From the NCBI RefSeq assembly GCF_003732705.1, contig NZ_MOBR01000040.1, positions 372,001 through 436,000 of the forward strand: DNA of 64,000 nucleotides. The letters are read 5' to 3'. The position numbers were made by a program, and so were the translations under genes. Below, piece by piece: positions 57,145 to 62,937 of this stretch (position 1 is its first letter; the number at the start of each line of letters is the position of its first letter). The notes beneath the pieces are model-generated. The model had not been told where the DNA came from and made no database searches. It was given only the letters and a program-made list of their open reading frames with translations. The DNA comes from Pseudomonas frederiksbergensis. Lineage in GTDB: Bacteria > Pseudomonadota > Gammaproteobacteria > Pseudomonadales > Pseudomonadaceae.

Positions 57145-57858
57145 TTACTTGGCGGCGTCTTGTTTCGCTGGATCTTTGATTGCCAGCAGCTCCAGATCGA
57201 ATACCAGCACCGAGTTGGCCGGGATTGCCGGGCTTGGGCTTTGCGCGCCGTAAGCCAGGTCGCTAGGAATGTACAGCTTGTACTTCTCGCCGACGTGCAT
57301 CAGTTGCAGGCCTTCGACCCAACCAGGGATTACACCGCTGACTGGCAGATCAATCGGGCTACCGCGATCAACCGAGCTGTCAAAGGTGGTGCCGTTGGTC
57401 AGCTTACCGGTGTAGTGAACAGTCACTACGTCGGTCGGCTTAGGCTGAGGACCATCCGCTTTTTTCACGACTTCATATTGCAGACCGGATGCAGTGGTCA
57501 CTACACCGGCTTTCTTGGCGTTGTCTTCGAGGAATTTCTTGCCGGCGGCTGCCGACTCTTCGCTCATTTTCGCCATGCGTTCTTCTGCACGCTTTTGCAG
57601 TGCTGCGAAGGCCTCGACCAGTTCGTCGTCCTTCAGCTTTTGTTCTTTCTTGCCGACGGCATCTTCGATGCCTTGGGCTACGGCCTTGGAATCCAGATCA
57701 TCCATGCCTTCCTGAGCCAGGCTCTTGCCCATGTTCAGGCCAATCCCGTAGGAAGCTTTTTGCGCCGGGGTTTTCAGCTCTACGCTGGTCTGCGAATCAC
57801 AACCCGCAAGTACCAGGCTTACCAGGGCCACCGCCGCCGCCAACCGATGCTGTTTCAT
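57145..57858 (-). CDS. FKBP-type peptidyl-prolyl isomerase lipoprotein
   Basis: The 237-residue protein has a lipoprotein signal (LVSLVLAGC) and an N-terminal helical dimerisation domain (about 30-125) as in FkpA and Mip. A C-terminal FKBP domain has VTVHYTGKLTNGTTFDSS, PVSGVIPGWVEGLQLM and YIPSDLAYG. It assists proline isomerisation and folding in the periplasm, anchored by lipid. Whether to call it FkpA or FklB is a naming matter. The start is an ATG with a GGAAA-type ribosome-binding site. Confidence 0.93.
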   Translation of the reverse strand: MKQHRLAAAVALVSLVLAGCDSQTSVELKTPAQKASYGIGLNMGKSLAQEGMDDLDSKAVAQGIEDAVGKKEQKLKDDELVEAFAALQKRAEERMAKMSEESAAAGKKFLEDNAKKAGVVTTASGLQYEVVKKADGPQPKPTDVVTVHYTGKLTNGTTFDSSVDRGSPIDLPVSGVIPGWVEGLQLMHVGEKYKLYIPSDLAYGAQSPSPAIPANSVLVFDLELLAIKDPAKQDAAK

Positions 57859-58130
57859 GCTATTTCCTTGTTCATGCGCCTAAAGGGCAATCGAATAAAG
57901 CCGCGAGCTTATCAGGCGGCCACGACCAATGGCTACCGGCATGAGAGCAGGATACTGCTGATAAGTTCAGGTCTTTTAAAGCATTTCGGGAATGAGCTGG
58001 ATGAAGTTTCTGTCATCTTGCTCCCACAGACGCAGATGCCGGTTCCTACAACACTTGGCGTAATGGCCACTTGCCGCCCCCTAAGCAGCTGAGGCATAAG
58101 AGAGCTATAAAAACGACAAGGACGTTTATC

Positions 58131-59939
58131 TTGCGCCTCTTACTCCGCTTGCTGATTCTGATCGTTGCGCTGCTGGGGCTTGGCCTGGCCGTGGTTCTTT
58201 ACTACGTCGCCAACCCGAAGCTGCCCGCTTACTCCCCCGCCCAACAGGTGCATTACCTGGAGCAGTGGAGCGCCGCCGACCGCCAGACTTACTACTTCAC
58301 CCCCCAGGGCACGCAAGTCAAAGGCTTGCATTACGACTGGTTCGAGGCGCTGGAATTGCCGTTCTCGCAACAGCGTTTTGCCGCCCCGGAGTATCTCGCG
58401 CGCTTCGGTTTTCTGATCGATCCCGCCCAGAAAGCCACGCCAATTAACCCTGGCAACCTGCCCGTGGGTTTCGCCCGGCACCAGAATCCCGGCAGCCAGG
58501 ACCGGTTTCTCGACATCACCTGCGCCGCCTGTCACACCGGCGAATTACGCTTCAATGGCCAGGCTGTGCGCATCGATGGCGGCTCGGCCCAGCATGTGTT
58601 GCCGTCCAGCGTGCCGACCCTGCGCGGTGGCAGTTTTGGCCAGGCATTGGTGGCCAGTCTTGTATCGACTTATTACAACCCGTGGAAATTCGAACGTTTC
58701 GCACGCAACGTGTTGGGCGCGGACTACGACGCCCGGCATCAAGTCCTACGGGAAGACTTCAAAAAATCCCTCGATACCTTCCTGAAAGTCGCCTGGAACG
58801 ATACCCATCGCGGCCTCTATCCCACCGAAGAAGGGCCCGGCCGTACCGACGCGTTCGGGCGCATTGCCAATGCCAGTTTCGGTGATGCTATTTCGCCGGC
58901 TAACTACCGCGTGGCCAACGCCCCGGTGGATTATCCACAGCTGTGGGATATCTGGACCTTCGATTGGGTGCAGTGGAATGGCTCGGCGCAGCAGCCGATG
59001 GCGCGCAATATCGGCGAGGCGCTGGGTGTGGGCGCGACGTTGAATTTCTTTGATGCTGATGGGCAGCCGCTTACCGGCGATGCGCGCTATCCCTCCAGCG
59101 TCCGGGTTCGTGATCTGAATTTGATCGAAGAAACCCTGCAACGCCTCAAGCCGCCGGCCTGGCCGGAAGACGTGCTAGGCAGCGTCGATAAGCCCCTGGC
59201 GGCCCAAGGTCGCGCGTTGTTCGCCGAGAATTGCGCCAGTTGTCACGTGCCACGGGTGAATCAGGTTGGCAGCCGTGCAGTGCAACAACTCAAATTACTG
59301 CCAGTCGCGGCCATCGGCACCGATCCCACCGCCGCCAACAACATCGCAGACCATCGTTTCGACCTGACGGCCCTGCAATGGGACCCGGCGGAGCTGGGGC
59401 AACTGGATGTTCAACTGCATCCCAAACCGACCGAGCCACTGGACTTGAGCAAGCTCTCGGTGGCCAAAGGGTTGGCGTACGTCACGGCGTTCGTCGAAAA
59501 CCGGGCTTACCGCGAGGCCAAGGTCACCCCGGCGGAGCGCCCGGACCTGGATGGGTTCGGATTGCCCATCGGAGTACAAGAACTGCGCGCCTATAAAGCC
59601 AGGCCATTAGCGGGCGTCTGGGCCACTGCGCCGTTTCTGCACAACGGTTCGGTGCCAAGCATTTATGAGTTGCTGTCGCCCCAGGACGAACGCGCGACCA
59701 CTTTCTATAAAGGCACCTTCGAGTTCGATCCCAAACATTTGGGCTATCGCACTGAGGCCTTTGCCAATGGCTTTGTGTTCGACACACGCATCACCGGCAA
59801 TCACAACAGTGGTCACGAGTTCCGGGCCGGTGAACGCGGCAACGGCGTTATCGGACGCCTGCTGCAACCCCAGGAACGCTGGGCGCTGCTGGAGTACCTG
59901 AAAGTCTTGGGTGGTCCGCTGGAGACGCAGTTGCCATGA
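58131..59939 (+). CDS. Membrane-anchored diheme c-type protein (RoxA/MauG/fatty acid dioxygenase-like)
   Basis: The 602-residue protein has one N-terminal membrane helix (LLLRLLILIVALLGLGLAVVLYYV) and a periplasmic body with two haem c sites, CAACH (131-135) and CASCH (368-372). The C-terminal segment ATAPFLHNGSVPSIYELL is typical of the diheme peroxidase-like group that includes RoxA and, from memory, the P. aeruginosa fatty-acid dioxygenase/diol synthase pair PA2077/PA2078. It may oxidise a lipid or polymer rather than peroxide. I start at the TTG at 58131 after AAGGA; an in-frame TTG at 58071 is the alternative. It lies 28 bp before the catalase-like gene. Confidence 0.85.
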   Translation: MRLLLRLLILIVALLGLGLAVVLYYVANPKLPAYSPAQQVHYLEQWSAADRQTYYFTPQGTQVKGLHYDWFEALELPFSQQRFAAPEYLARFGFLIDPAQKATPINPGNLPVGFARHQNPGSQDRFLDITCAACHTGELRFNGQAVRIDGGSAQHVLPSSVPTLRGGSFGQALVASLVSTYYNPWKFERFARNVLGADYDARHQVLREDFKKSLDTFLKVAWNDTHRGLYPTEEGPGRTDAFGRIANASFGDAISPANYRVANAPVDYPQLWDIWTFDWVQWNGSAQQPMARNIGEALGVGATLNFFDADGQPLTGDARYPSSVRVRDLNLIEETLQRLKPPAWPEDVLGSVDKPLAAQGRALFAENCASCHVPRVNQVGSRAVQQLKLLPVAAIGTDPTAANNIADHRFDLTALQWDPAELGQLDVQLHPKPTEPLDLSKLSVAKGLAYVTAFVENRAYREAKVTPAERPDLDGFGLPIGVQELRAYKARPLAGVWATAPFLHNGSVPSIYELLSPQDERATTFYKGTFEFDPKHLGYRTEAFANGFVFDTRITGNHNSGHEFRAGERGNGVIGRLLQPQERWALLEYLKVLGGPLETQLP

Positions 59940-59967
59940 ATCCTGAATTCGTCAAAAGGACTTGCTC

Positions 59968-61104
59968 ATGCTGATCACGCTTTGGCTGCGCCTCGGCGCT
60001 TTTCTCGGAAAACTCCTGCTTTGCCTGCTGTGCCTGGGGTTATTGGGCTGGGCGCTCGCCACCGCATGGTTTGCCTGGCAGCGCAGTGGCGCGGTCTCGG
60101 CGGATGAACAGATCCCGGACGGCGAAGCGGCGATGACCCAGGACATCATCCAGACCGCCGTGCGCATCGTCGACCAGCACCGCGAAAGCACTCGATACCT
60201 GCGCGACGCCCATGCCAAGGCCCATGGCTGTGTGAAGGCCGAGGTTCAGGTGTTGCCGGATCTGGCGGCGGAATTGCGTCAAGGTGTGTTCAGCGAGCCG
60301 GGCAAATCCTGGCAAGCGACCGTGCGCCTGTCCAACGGCAACGCCTATCCGCAATTCGACAGCATCCGCGATGCCCGGGGCATGGCCATCAAGTTGCTCG
60401 ATGTACCCGGCAAACAATTGCTGGCTGATCAGGCGGGTCGCCACGAGCAGGATTTCGTGATGTTCAGCCACCCGAATTTCTTTGTCAGCGATGTCGCCGA
60501 GTACCGCCAGAATGTGGCCGCTCAGGCGGATGGCAAAACTGCGATGGCGTTCTTTCCGGGCTGGGATCCACGCACCTGGCAGGTTCGCCATCTATTTATC
60601 GCCCTGGCGACGCTCTCCCCCGCCCCCGACAGTCCGACCCAGACCACCTACTTTTCGGTTTCGCCCTACAAGTTCGGCGCAGCCAATGCCAAGTTCCGCG
60701 TCATGCCCGATCCGGGAAGCTGTCCGACCTATGTCCTGCCCAAACAAAATCAGGATCTGCCGAACTTCCTGCGCAGTGCGCTGAACCAGCAGTTGTCGAC
60801 CGACCGGGTGCCAGCGTGTTTCGTCCTGCAGATCCAGCGCCAGGATGCGAATAAGTACATGCCGATTGAGGACACAAGCATTGAATGGCACGAAAGTGAT
60901 GCGCCGTTCGAGACCGTGGCGAAGATCAATGTGCCGGCGCAGGATTTCGATACCCCGGCGCTGAATCTGCAATGCGATAACCAGTCGTTCAACCCGTGGT
61001 TCGGGCTGGAGGCGCATCGGCCGATTGGCGGGATCAATCGTCTGCGTAAAGCAGTGTATGAAGCGGTCAGCGACTACCGCCACAGCCGCAACGCCGAGCA
61101 ATAA
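59968..61104 (+). CDS. Membrane-anchored catalase-like haem protein
   Basis: The 378-residue protein has an N-terminal membrane helix (about 12-36) and a reduced catalase core. DAHAKAHGCVKAEV carries the distal histidine (His82), and RDARGMAIKLLDV is the haem-pocket motif. A C-terminal R-x-x-x-x-x-Y-like segment, HRPIGGINRLRKAVYEAV, probably carries the haem-ligand tyrosine. The usual distal Asn of G-N-N-T-P-x-F-F is absent (MFSHPNFF). Small catalase-fold proteins of this type can be hydroperoxide lyases or allene oxide synthases. It is paired with the diheme protein. AAAGGA precedes the ATG. Confidence 0.82.
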   Translation: MLITLWLRLGAFLGKLLLCLLCLGLLGWALATAWFAWQRSGAVSADEQIPDGEAAMTQDIIQTAVRIVDQHRESTRYLRDAHAKAHGCVKAEVQVLPDLAAELRQGVFSEPGKSWQATVRLSNGNAYPQFDSIRDARGMAIKLLDVPGKQLLADQAGRHEQDFVMFSHPNFFVSDVAEYRQNVAAQADGKTAMAFFPGWDPRTWQVRHLFIALATLSPAPDSPTQTTYFSVSPYKFGAANAKFRVMPDPGSCPTYVLPKQNQDLPNFLRSALNQQLSTDRVPACFVLQIQRQDANKYMPIEDTSIEWHESDAPFETVAKINVPAQDFDTPALNLQCDNQSFNPWFGLEAHRPIGGINRLRKAVYEAVSDYRHSRNAEQ

Positions 61105-61123
61105 ACGCCAAACACAGTCACCC

Positions 61124-61213
61124 TGTGGGAGCGGGCTTGCTCGCGAAGGCGGTGTATCAGTCGCCGAAGATGTTGGCTGACACACCGCCTTCGCGAGCAA
61201 GCCCGCTCCCACA
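61124..61213. repeat. REP doublet, family B variant
   Basis: The arms TGTGGGAGCGGGCTTGCTCG and complement enclose a loop with GATGTTGGCTGAC. It lies between the catalase-like gene and the tRNA cluster. Confidence 0.88.
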
Positions 61214-61247
61214 AGGGAATCACGGTAGTGAGTCAAATCCCAGACGA

Positions 61248-61273: not shown

Positions 61274-61315
61274 CTGTGTGGTGACCTGGCGTTCAGCGTT
61301 CCAGGTTACCGAATA

Positions 61316-61392
61316 TGGCGCAGCGGACGGGACTCGAACCCGCGACCCCCGGCGTGACAGGCCGGTATTCTAACCGACTGAACTACCGCTGC
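61316..61392 (-). tRNA. tRNA-Asp (GUC), copy 1
   Basis: The 77-base cloverleaf has acceptor GCAGCGG/CCGCTGC, anticodon GTC in CCTGTCACG, T-loop GGTTCGAGTCC and an encoded CCA. It lies 18 bases after tRNA-Val copy 1 on the minus strand. Confidence 0.97.
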
Positions 61393-61410
61393 GCGTAGCG
61401 TTGAAAGTAA

Positions 61411-61486
61411 TGGTGGGTGATGACGGGATCGAACCGCCGACATTCTGCTTGTAAGGCAGACGCTCTCCCAGCTGAGCTAATCACCC
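61411..61486 (-). tRNA. tRNA-Val (UAC), copy 1
   Basis: The 76-base cloverleaf has acceptor GGGTGAT/ATCACCC, anticodon TAC in CCTTACAAG, T-loop GGTTCGATCCC and an encoded CCA. Confidence 0.97.
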
Positions 61487-61618
61487 TTTACCTTCGTTGC
61501 GGGGCGCATTATGCCACAGGTTTTCGTAAAGTGTTGATTTAATTGAATATTTTTTCAAATAAATCCGAAAACCCATAAAACAACGCGACCTGCAGGAACA
61601 ACATACAAACGTGGGGCA

Positions 61619-61642
61619 GAAAAAAACCCGCGTTAGCGGGCT
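61619..61642 (-). terminator. Terminator between the two tRNA units
   Basis: On the minus strand, CCCGC/GCGGG around TAAC is followed by a run of Us. It lies after tRNA-Asp copy 2, so the two Val-Asp units are probably separate transcripts. Confidence 0.8.
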
Positions 61643-61685
61643 TTTCCGTGGTGACCTGGCGTTCAGCGTTCCAGGTTACCGAATA

Positions 61686-61762
61686 TGGCGCAGCGGACGG
61701 GACTCGAACCCGCGACCCCCGGCGTGACAGGCCGGTATTCTAACCGACTGAACTACCGCTGC
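61686..61762 (-). tRNA. tRNA-Asp (GUC), copy 2
   Basis: Identical over its length to copy 1, exactly 370 bp away. The anticodon is GTC and CCA is encoded. Confidence 0.97.
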
Positions 61763-61781
61763 GCGTAACACTAAAAACGAA

Positions 61782-61857
61782 TGGTGGGTGATGACGGGAT
61801 CGAACCGCCGACATTCTGCTTGTAAGGCAGACGCTCTCCCAGCTGAGCTAATCACCC
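61782..61857 (-). tRNA. tRNA-Val (UAC), copy 2
   Basis: Identical to copy 1, 371 bp away. The anticodon is TAC and CCA is encoded. It is the first gene of the tandem cluster in the direction of transcription. Confidence 0.97.
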
Positions 61858-62016
61858 TTCGCTTCGGTGTGGCGCGCATTCTACGGAGCACCCCCACCTC
61901 TGGCAAGCACTTTTTTAAATAATTTTCTCAGGCCTTCCAAAGGCTTAGAGAAGGGTTGGCCTATGGCGCCGCGAAGAGAATAATGCCCCCCTTTGTATAA
62001 AGGAGAGACTCGCCTC

Positions 62017-62937
62017 ATGTGGTTCAAAAACCTGCTTATCTATCGCCTGACCCAAGATCTGCCTTTTGATGCCGAGGCGTTGGAAACTGCACTGGCGACC
62101 AAACTGGCGCGTCCATGTGCAAGCCAGGAGTTGACCACTTACGGTTTCGTCGCGCCGTTCGGCAAGGGCGAAGATGCTCCGCTGGCGCACGTCAGCGGTG
62201 ACTTCCTGCTGATCGCCGCCCGTAAAGAAGAACGCATTCTGCCGGGCAGCGTCGTGCGCGACGCGGTCAAGGAAAAGGTCGAAGAGATCGAAGCCACGCA
62301 AATGCGCAAGGTCTATAAGAAGGAACGCGATCAGATCAAGGATGAAATCATCCTCGCGTTCCTGCCGCGCGCCTTTATCCGTCGCTCGTCGACCTTCGCC
62401 GCCATCGCGCCGAAACAAGGCCTGATCCTGGTGAACTCGGCCAGCCCGAAACGCGCCGAAGACCTGCTGTCGACCCTGCGTGAAGTGATCGGCTCGCTGC
62501 CAGTACGTCCGCTGACCGTCAAAATGGCCCCGACTGCCACCATGACCGACTGGGTCAAAACCCAGAAAGCCGCCGACGACTTCTTTGTTCTGGACGAGTG
62601 CGAACTGCGCGACACCCACGAAGACGGCGGCATCGTGCGTTGCAAGCGTCAGGACCTGACCAGCGACGAAATCCAGTTGCACCTGAGCACCGGCAAAGTG
62701 GTGACTCAGTTGTCCCTGGCGTGGCAGGACAAGTTGTCGTTCATGCTCGACGACAAAATGACCGTCAAGCGCCTGAAGTTCGAAGATTTACTGCAGGATC
62801 AGGCAGAACAGGACGGCGGCGACGAAGCCCTGGGCCAACTGGACGCCAGCTTCACCCTGATGATGCTGACCTTCGGCGACTTCCTGCCGGCGCTGGTTGA
62901 AGCGTTGGGCGGCGAAGAGACCCCACAAGGCATTTAA
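62017..62937 (+). CDS. rdgC: Recombination-associated protein RdgC
   Basis: RdgC is a ring-shaped, non-specific DNA-binding protein that restrains RecA-mediated recombination on the nucleoid. The 306-residue protein starts [17 protein letters not shown], the family N-terminus, and contains [31 protein letters not shown] and the C-terminal [21 protein letters not shown]. An AAGGAGAG site precedes the ATG. It is divergent from the tRNA cluster. Confidence 0.97.

Follow-up and report, generated by a model that had tools for sequence, protein, structure and literature searches.

Two neighbouring genes on the plus strand of a Pseudomonas frederiksbergensis genome are analysed here, within a 64-kb stretch (the window) of a total of 7.1 Mb. 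Together they span positions 58131-61104, with 28 bp from the stop codon of the first to the start codon of the second. The upstream gene (58131..59939) encodes a RoxA-like diheme c-type protein of 602 amino acids, membrane-anchored and predicted to be periplasmic, which was assigned through the NCBIfam model NF040606, the Pfam family RoxA-like_Cyt-c and a match to the rubber dioxygenase RoxA (4b2n). The downstream gene (59968..61104) encodes a membrane-anchored, catalase-fold protein of 378 amino acids, recognized by Pfam Catalase, a structure model and structure searches. The diheme gene starts with TTG, preceded by a ribosome-binding-like AAGGA, and the catalase-like gene starts with ATG, with AAAAGGA on its 5' side. 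An AlphaFold model of the diheme protein, a structure model of the catalase-like protein and hydropathy profiles place N-terminal membrane helices at residues 2-27 of the former (58134..58211) and 2-38 of the latter (59971..60081); hydropathy over 19 residues peaks there at 2.85 and 2.22, respectively. Coordinates, models and hydropathy thus bear out the initial annotation, which had described two genes 28 bp apart, each with an N-terminal membrane helix. Judging from the models, both proteins are probably anchored in the inner membrane. We consider the chances about even that the pair forms a two-step periplasmic unit of a lipid oxygenase and a hydroperoxide-processing partner.

The two genes are inherited together throughout the family. 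We searched 148 genomes of the Pseudomonadaceae with each window protein. The catalase-like protein was found at 82 places, of which 64 were strong (61-100% identity) and 18 weak matches (31-36%); for the diheme protein there were 64 strong matches plus 6 further places in 5 genomes. Each of the 64 strong catalase-like matches directly follows a strong diheme match on the same strand, the matched stretches being 2-471 bp apart. Not one of the 148 genomes contained just one strong member and 84 contained neither (Fisher P of about 1.6e-43 for presence and absence, ignoring shared descent). Chance adjacency of the two genes was ruled out by these 64/64 loci and this P value. Diheme pieces on their own, without a strong catalase, occur in G129 and G072 (57-67% identity, with stops in G129) and were counted as weak. 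Among named Pseudomonas we analysed the best 80 of at least 566 confirmed relatives of the catalase-like protein, all 80 of which belong to this genus. The diheme gene precedes the catalase-like gene in 80/80 of these loci, with an FKBP gene beyond it on the opposite strand. The closest named relatives among the matches listed come from Pseudomonas sp. ANT_J12 and a P. frederiksbergensis strain (95% each).

The diheme protein belongs to the RoxA/FadCcp type. It scores 585 bits against NF040606, above the curated cut-off of 150, and 64.3 bits against RoxA-like_Cyt-c. Two proteins encoded in tandem in genome G126 score 488 and 529 bits and fall into the same NF040606 subfamily. We call them PA2078/PA2077-like because of their lengths (624 and 634, the latter from a second start), their order and their Gln-Ser and Gln-Trp-...-Lys-Phe residues, as far as these are given in the accessible text of PMC4496055; the CXXCH letters of the second protein differ from those printed there. 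Both heme attachment motifs are present in the window protein, CAACH at residues 131-135 (58521..58535; Cys, Cys and His invariant 17/17) and, by translation and alignment, CASCH at residues 368-372 (59232..59246). His504 (59640..59642, invariant 17/17) lies in the MauG/RoxA-type motif PFLHNGS; among the 17 aligned diheme proteins the CXXCH sites and HNG are invariant, and the Ser of HNGS is found in 16. His562 in NSGHEF (59814..59816) aligns with RoxA His641, the axial ligand of heme 2. The putative inter-heme bridge Trp282 (58974..58976) aligns with RoxA Trp302 and PA2077 Trp251 (PMC4496055); paired diheme proteins carry Trp or Tyr here, with Tyr in five distant ones. Trp282 is preceded by Gln as in PA2077, which corresponds to F301Q in RoxA terms. 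The window protein shares with RoxA both heme sites, the inter-heme Trp and the His517- and His641-type positions, but has Gln in place of F301. The window genome encodes a second RoxA-like protein, unpaired, with 202 bits against NF040606 (contig C2, L069:8504-10369).

RoxA is the sole sequence match of the diheme protein in the Protein Data Bank at E 0.01 and by far the top match for the diheme profiles. This would fit a different substrate: the diheme protein could cleave or oxygenate an isoprenoid, a quinone or another membrane or plant lipid, comparable to RoxA and polyisoprene, and the catalase-like protein could process the peroxidic or carbonyl product. We regard this as unlikely, as the NCBIfam models for RoxA, RoxB and RoxC give only 51.5-61 bits, far below their cut-offs of 900-1000 (51.5 against 1000 for RoxA).

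The name of the NF040606 subfamily at NCBI, di-heme cytochrome c peroxidase, points elsewhere, as does the structural comparison. The AlphaFold model (mean predicted local distance difference test score, pLDDT, 84.8) matched nothing in Foldseek at an E value of 0.001 or below, and a structural second look ranked MauG first (Z 11.2), followed by bacterial cytochrome c peroxidases (CCPs, Z about 10). Accordingly, the diheme protein might be MauG/CCP-like and consume hydrogen peroxide in a reaction with a protein or a small molecule, the catalase-like protein serving as a reserve sink. We consider this quite improbable. The second look compared Foldseek's own candidates alone, with RoxA not among them, and its ranking therefore cannot choose between MauG/CCP and RoxA. 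Moreover, a CCP is about half as large as the diheme protein, taking the CCP size from the accessible text of PMC4496055. In a tree of 38 diheme-type proteins, just two of which are of the CCP/MauG type (both from the window genome), these two split from the RoxA-like proteins with support of 100/100 on long branches. On the basis of the tree and the family-model scores, we rejected a true CCP for the diheme protein. The initial annotation had likened it to RoxA and fatty-acid dioxygenases rather than to classical peroxidases, and had named clustering with true CCPs as the finding that would speak against it; the separation in the tree and the NF040606 membership shared with PA2078/PA2077-like proteins support its assignment.

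Within the same tree the window protein falls into a clade of 14 members, every one of them paired with a catalase-like gene (support 98/96). Other paired diheme proteins fall outside it: the G193 protein has the tandem PA2078/PA2077-like proteins of G126 as its sisters (100/99), the G328 protein groups with unpaired diheme proteins (100/100), and the placement of the G505 protein is not firm. Mapping the paired state onto the tree gave four changes, at least three of which are forced by well-supported branches; the partners do not form one clade. G193 also has a further RoxA-like diheme gene next to the paired one, in divergent orientation (L053:4751-6565).

The second protein is nearest to the small catalase-related type. 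It scores 30.4 bits against Pfam Catalase (cut-off 25) and has no match among NCBIfam models. Its structure model (mean pLDDT 85.4) has as top Foldseek match the 33-kDa catalase-related protein MAP-2744c (3e4w, 3e4y; E 2e-15), which is also the best match of the alignment profile A4, built from 15 paired catalases. MAP-2744c is reactive with hydroperoxides; its chain has 320 amino acids versus 378 in the window protein. In a structural second look, coral allene oxide synthase-lipoxygenase (Z 26.0), allene oxide synthase (25.6) and MAP-2744c (24.7 and 24.4) ranked before the catalases (23.6 or less), the coral matches aligning over more residues (305 versus about 265). The distal His82 in RDAHAKAHG (60211..60213) aligns with the catalase distal His, and the proximal heme ligand motif R360-x-x-x-Y364 (61045..61059) aligns with the C-terminal segment of MAP-2744c and of catalase. 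Arg79, His82, Arg120, Arg360, Tyr364 and Arg371 are invariant in the 15 sequences of A4. Opposite Asn148-Asn149 of human catalase, the profile alignment places Phe166-Ser167 (60463..60468): DLVGNNTP aligns with DFVMFSHP, where a one-residue shift is possible, yet neither Phe166 nor Ser167 is Asn. MAP-2744c likewise lacks an Asn opposite Asn148 in the profile alignment. A distal Asn and a chain of about 480 amino acids or more characterize monofunctional heme catalases; in the 378-residue window protein this Asn is replaced. Catalase fold, distal His and proximal Tyr are all present, as in catalase-related enzymes that process hydroperoxides. These results agree with the initial annotation, according to which the protein keeps the distal His and a C-terminal Tyr and lacks the usual distal Asn.

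The main rival explanation starts from the same residues. The retained heme-ligand set and distal His would also suit a protein that clears hydrogen peroxide (or lipid peroxides) near the membrane and thereby guards the envelope or a peroxide-sensitive diheme enzyme, without any common substrate. Consistent with such a role, the accessible text of PMC6797691 reports that catalase-like activity of RoxA was sought in vain and that low concentrations of hydrogen peroxide severely inhibit RoxA. Still, we find protection somewhat unlikely: the distal Asn is replaced, and the top structural matches are hydroperoxide-processing relatives, though by a small margin.

We further analysed 42 catalase-type proteins in a tree. 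Eighteen diheme-paired rows form one clade (97/87), and G505 groups with the plasmid members L192, L194 and L195, which have diheme or heme-peroxidase partners (86/91). Nine unpaired catalase-type proteins form a separate clade behind a deep split (100/100); their N-terminal hydropathy peaks do not exceed 1.03, meaning that they have no hydrophobic N-terminus, in comparison to peaks of 1.88-2.71 in 12 Pseudomonadaceae rows.

Pairs also occur outside the family. In a phylum sample of 398 genomes, searched at E 1e-20, the catalase profile A1 matched 39 genomes and the diheme profile A3 matched 37. Sixteen of the 39 belong to the family. Among the 23 others, the two genes are adjacent in precisely the six genomes with scores above 200 bits, in G505 in reversed order; for the 17 remaining, adjacency was assessed by means of the listed places, supplemented by fetched regions in about half of the cases. 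Profile A4 matched 10 genomes of a class sample of 274 at E 1e-30, the window's own included, and in two of the other nine (G771 and G663) the catalase-like gene is paired with a diheme gene. It shares one frame with an animal-type heme peroxidase in G586 and lies next to the gene of a weakly DyP-like protein in G652, and the catalase of G718 groups in the tree with a catalase-LodA fusion. For G580, G710, G608 and G177, some of them on short contigs, no diheme, peroxidase or DyP-like partner was found in the class sample. Both samples together contain 31 distinct non-family genomes with a match (G177 being shared), eight of them paired. Co-occurrence elsewhere, whose lack the initial annotation had likewise named as telling against it, is seen in 64/64 strong matches of the family and in 8/31 genomes beyond it.

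The neighbours of distant pairs bear on the possible substrate. In L049 and L050 the gene string consists of a patatin-like phospholipase (Pfam 36.2 and 35.3 bits; cut-off 27.7), an SMP-30/gluconolactonase-like protein, the diheme and the catalase-like gene. On pNGR234a of S. fredii NGR234, the catalase gene is followed by a small open reading frame, a diheme gene that scores 491 bits against NF040606 and a gene with a patatin-like annotation, which at 26.0 bits stays under the Pfam cut-off of 27.7. Since patatin-like neighbours occur in three gene strings, an acyl-lipid substrate is hinted at, which argues against isoprenoids or quinones. In L183 and L184, the pair is preceded by genes for a TPR and an SMP-30-like protein, the latter at 52-58% to its L049 counterpart. 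With such TPR and SMP-30-like proteins, and no lipase, before the pair, G771 and G663 would suit a substrate other than acyl lipids. On pNGR234a a broken RoxA-like diheme gene lies directly before the catalase gene (L195:3942-5865), with the intact one behind.

Other partners of catalase relatives bear on peroxide protection. The catalase gene on a plasmid of Methylobacterium currus follows a gene for an animal-type heme peroxidase (142.8 bits to PF03098), and on a Paracoccus yeei plasmid the catalase gene lies between a RoxA-like diheme gene and a heme peroxidase gene (156.1 bits). Partnership with COX-like heme peroxidases of this kind speaks against mere protection. Conversely, the remote cousin in L060 is fused to a LodA-type oxidase and others stand beside weakly DyP-like proteins, which would suit it. 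LodA-type oxidases produce hydrogen peroxide. Among these cousins, 980-aa frames with a catalase-like domain were found at L060:4355-7309 and L188:2-2944, but an L-lysine epsilon-oxidase (LodA) part was identified just in the L060 frame; the L188 frame has a divergently oriented fatty acid cis/trans isomerase gene next to it. The loci with weakly DyP-like neighbours are L079:5847-8623 and L187:4861-7580. At L055:11188-13890 one 900-aa frame includes a catalase-like part; its start resembles these neighbours by eye and has no Pfam match.

In the window, the pair is flanked on the left by a gene for an FKBP-type isomerase (57145..57858, minus strand) and on the right by two tandem tRNA-Asp/tRNA-Val pairs (61316..61857, minus strand) and rdgC (62017..62937, plus strand); family searches, relatives' loci and, for the tRNA genes, repeat analysis identify these as conserved neighbours. 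RdgC is present in 70/80 of the named Pseudomonas loci. Of the ten loci without it, seven break off less than 1.8 kb past the catalase gene; the remaining three, L139, L161 and L165, lack it in a full 4-kb flank. We fetched 15 FKBP regions, 14 from genomes that carry the pair elsewhere and one (G005) from a genome without it. In 13/15 regions the distance from FKBP to RdgC is 540-773 bp and includes tRNA-Asp/tRNA-Val genes, leaving no room for the pair; in the regions of G026 and G005 no RdgC or tRNA match was found. Because the pair is absent from this site in 13/15 sampled relatives, it was most simply inserted at the FKBP-tRNA-RdgC site in the window's lineage, a direction read from the site comparison without a species tree. 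The insertion between conserved neighbours proposed in the initial annotation is in keeping with this. Genes flanking the pair mostly differ among 13 fetched Pseudomonadaceae loci, and a related sigma-54-type regulator gene lies near it in four of them (L022, L023, L025, L032). The tRNA-Asp/tRNA-Val pair of the window is duplicated in tandem (61278-61860; repeats of 129 and 85 nt, 97-98% identical, 370-371 nt apart); relatives with the FKBP-RdgC site have one such pair in 12/13 cases and two in G078.

Upstream of the pair, a promoter-like AGGCATAA element was seen by eye on the plus strand (58092..58099). A GGCATAA-like element (GCCATAA in two) lies 30-45 nt upstream of the start in 12/13 Pseudomonadaceae upstream 60-mers, also by eye; in the window the 8-mer AGGCATAA is no commoner than chance (28 matches at one mismatch or fewer versus 34 expected). 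A search for sigma-54 promoters in front of 16 pairs gave, at best, windows that agree with the consensus at 7 to 9 of 11 bases; as these matches are partial and their positions scattered, we do not claim such a promoter. Directly 3' of the catalase-like gene there is an inverted repeat (61121-61216; 40 nt, 95% complementary, 16-nt loop), possibly a REP-type (repetitive extragenic palindromic) element or a terminator. Farther left, the segment 50000-52000 has a GC content of 0.47, compared to about 0.59 left of 50000, and may have been acquired.

The closest precedent for the pair is the linoleate 10S-dioxygenase of Nostoc punctiforme with its catalase-related 10S-hydroperoxide lyase, as far as the accessible descriptions go: in both systems a heme dioxygenase has a catalase-related partner encoded by a separate gene. 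The Nostoc genes we take to be neighbours. The dioxygenases differ, the Nostoc enzyme being COX-like and the window protein RoxA-like, and the two systems are likened here by description, not by sequence; relatives of the window catalase gene, as mentioned, also partner COX-like heme peroxidases. In the accessible text of PMC13049297 and PMC9579011, the 10S-dioxygenase makes the hydroperoxide and the catalase-related protein cleaves it. Fusions of catalase to lipoxygenase or heme dioxygenase are likewise described for cyanobacteria in the part of PMC11719350 available. The coral allene oxide synthase- and hydroperoxide lyase-lipoxygenases (1u5u, 3dy5; PMC5617202, accessible text) share with the window catalase the fold, the distal His, the proximal Tyr and the top Z-scores, but are fused to lipoxygenase and keep the distal Asn137, for which the window protein has no counterpart in the comparison made via human Asn148-Asn149.

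For the first enzyme, the P. aeruginosa proteins PA2077/PA2078 (oleate-diol synthase, FadCcp) are the model. They too are periplasmic, RoxA-like diheme proteins of about 600-630 amino acids encoded in a two-gene unit, with PA2077 sharing the inter-heme Trp and its preceding Gln. However, their second enzyme is another diheme protein and not a catalase-fold protein, and they carry a signal peptide where the window diheme protein has a membrane anchor. According to the accessible text of PMC4496055, PA2077 oxygenates oleate and needs both hemes, and its over-expression was lethal in one mutant, while the complete PA2078-PA2077 operon gave normal growth, a result that the authors interpret as PA2078 controlling the hydroperoxide. 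The window pair thus combines a PA2077-type first enzyme with a Nostoc-type second enzyme. A dioxygenase with a catalase-related hydroperoxide enzyme is a known kind of system; the version with a RoxA-like diheme protein is new. We found no description of a diheme/catalase-like pair in the literature searched, which covered the listed titles and starts of abstracts, with most subscription journals outside the search.

Building on the observed gene linkage, the heme sites, the modelled catalase fold and the predicted anchors, we infer a substrate, a hydroperoxide transfer and a product as follows. The diheme protein would activate oxygen at heme 1 close to the membrane surface and oxygenate an unsaturated membrane-derived lipid, most likely a fatty acid or acyl chain, releasing a hydroperoxide. 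The catalase-like protein would convert this hydroperoxide by lyase, isomerase or peroxidase chemistry. The outcome would be an oxylipin product and a toxic hydroperoxide kept low, comparable to what PA2078 may do for PA2077 and the catalase-related lyase in Nostoc.

Several observations weigh against this two-step unit. At the sequence level, what speaks most strongly against a plain RoxA-like reaction is the apparent lack of a counterpart to RoxA F317 (Phe269 in PA2077). Residues 282-299, where it is expected, contain no Phe, which is why we assume that the counterpart is missing, although the alignment does not fix the exact F317 equivalent; RoxA F317 variants including F317L lost bound oxygen and most or all activity, according to the accessible text of PMC6797691. 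In the diheme tree the PA2078/PA2077-like proteins form a sister group apart from the window protein, and, in the accessible text of PMC4496055, PA2077 over-expression was still harmful in a mutant retaining PA2078. On the catalase side, the Z lead of hydroperoxide-type relatives over true catalases is small, and the paired catalase of G328 lies off the other paired ones, together with an unpaired one (92/89). The plasmid catalases of M. currus, P. yeei and NGR234 have no hydrophobic N-terminus (peaks 0.77-1.02); a periplasmic site of the pair is therefore not universal. Unpaired L185 and L193, in turn, do carry one (1.92). None of the 18 weak family catalases has a listed diheme match within 6 kb, and relatives in G580, G710 and Acinetobacter baumannii have no diheme neighbour either. 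Remote cousins fused to a LodA-type oxidase or beside weakly DyP-like proteins belong here as well. Patatins occur in just three gene strings, all of them distant, and among 20 neighbour proteins scanned from 11 Pseudomonadaceae loci there were no patatins and one putative serine esterase. Of the oxylipin pathway proposed in the initial annotation, the grouping of the proteins, their co-occurrence and some patatin-like and COX-like neighbours speak in its favour, while the missing Phe, the three plasmid catalases and the LodA and DyP-like contexts do not fit.

Extending the two-step unit beyond the window, we tentatively put forward as possible that Pseudomonas and other Pseudomonadota have a widespread, so far overlooked oxylipin pathway in which a membrane-anchored diheme dioxygenase of the RoxA-like type passes a lipid hydroperoxide on to a catalase-type lyase or isomerase, likewise membrane-anchored, the catalase module having been swapped between diheme and COX-like dioxygenases in evolution. 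Oxylipins affect motility, biofilm formation and cell-to-cell communication in P. aeruginosa, as stated in the accessible parts of PMC5155153 and PMC6377657. If the proposal is true, many Pseudomonas would produce oxylipins in the periplasm, considering that the catalase-like protein has at least 566 confirmed relatives; we found no assay of such a route in the literature. In that case, genes now vaguely named 'di-heme-cytochrome C peroxidase' and 'catalase family protein' would become a testable pathway. The proposal would also suggest that catalase-type hydroperoxide enzymes have been recruited beside unrelated dioxygenases more than once.

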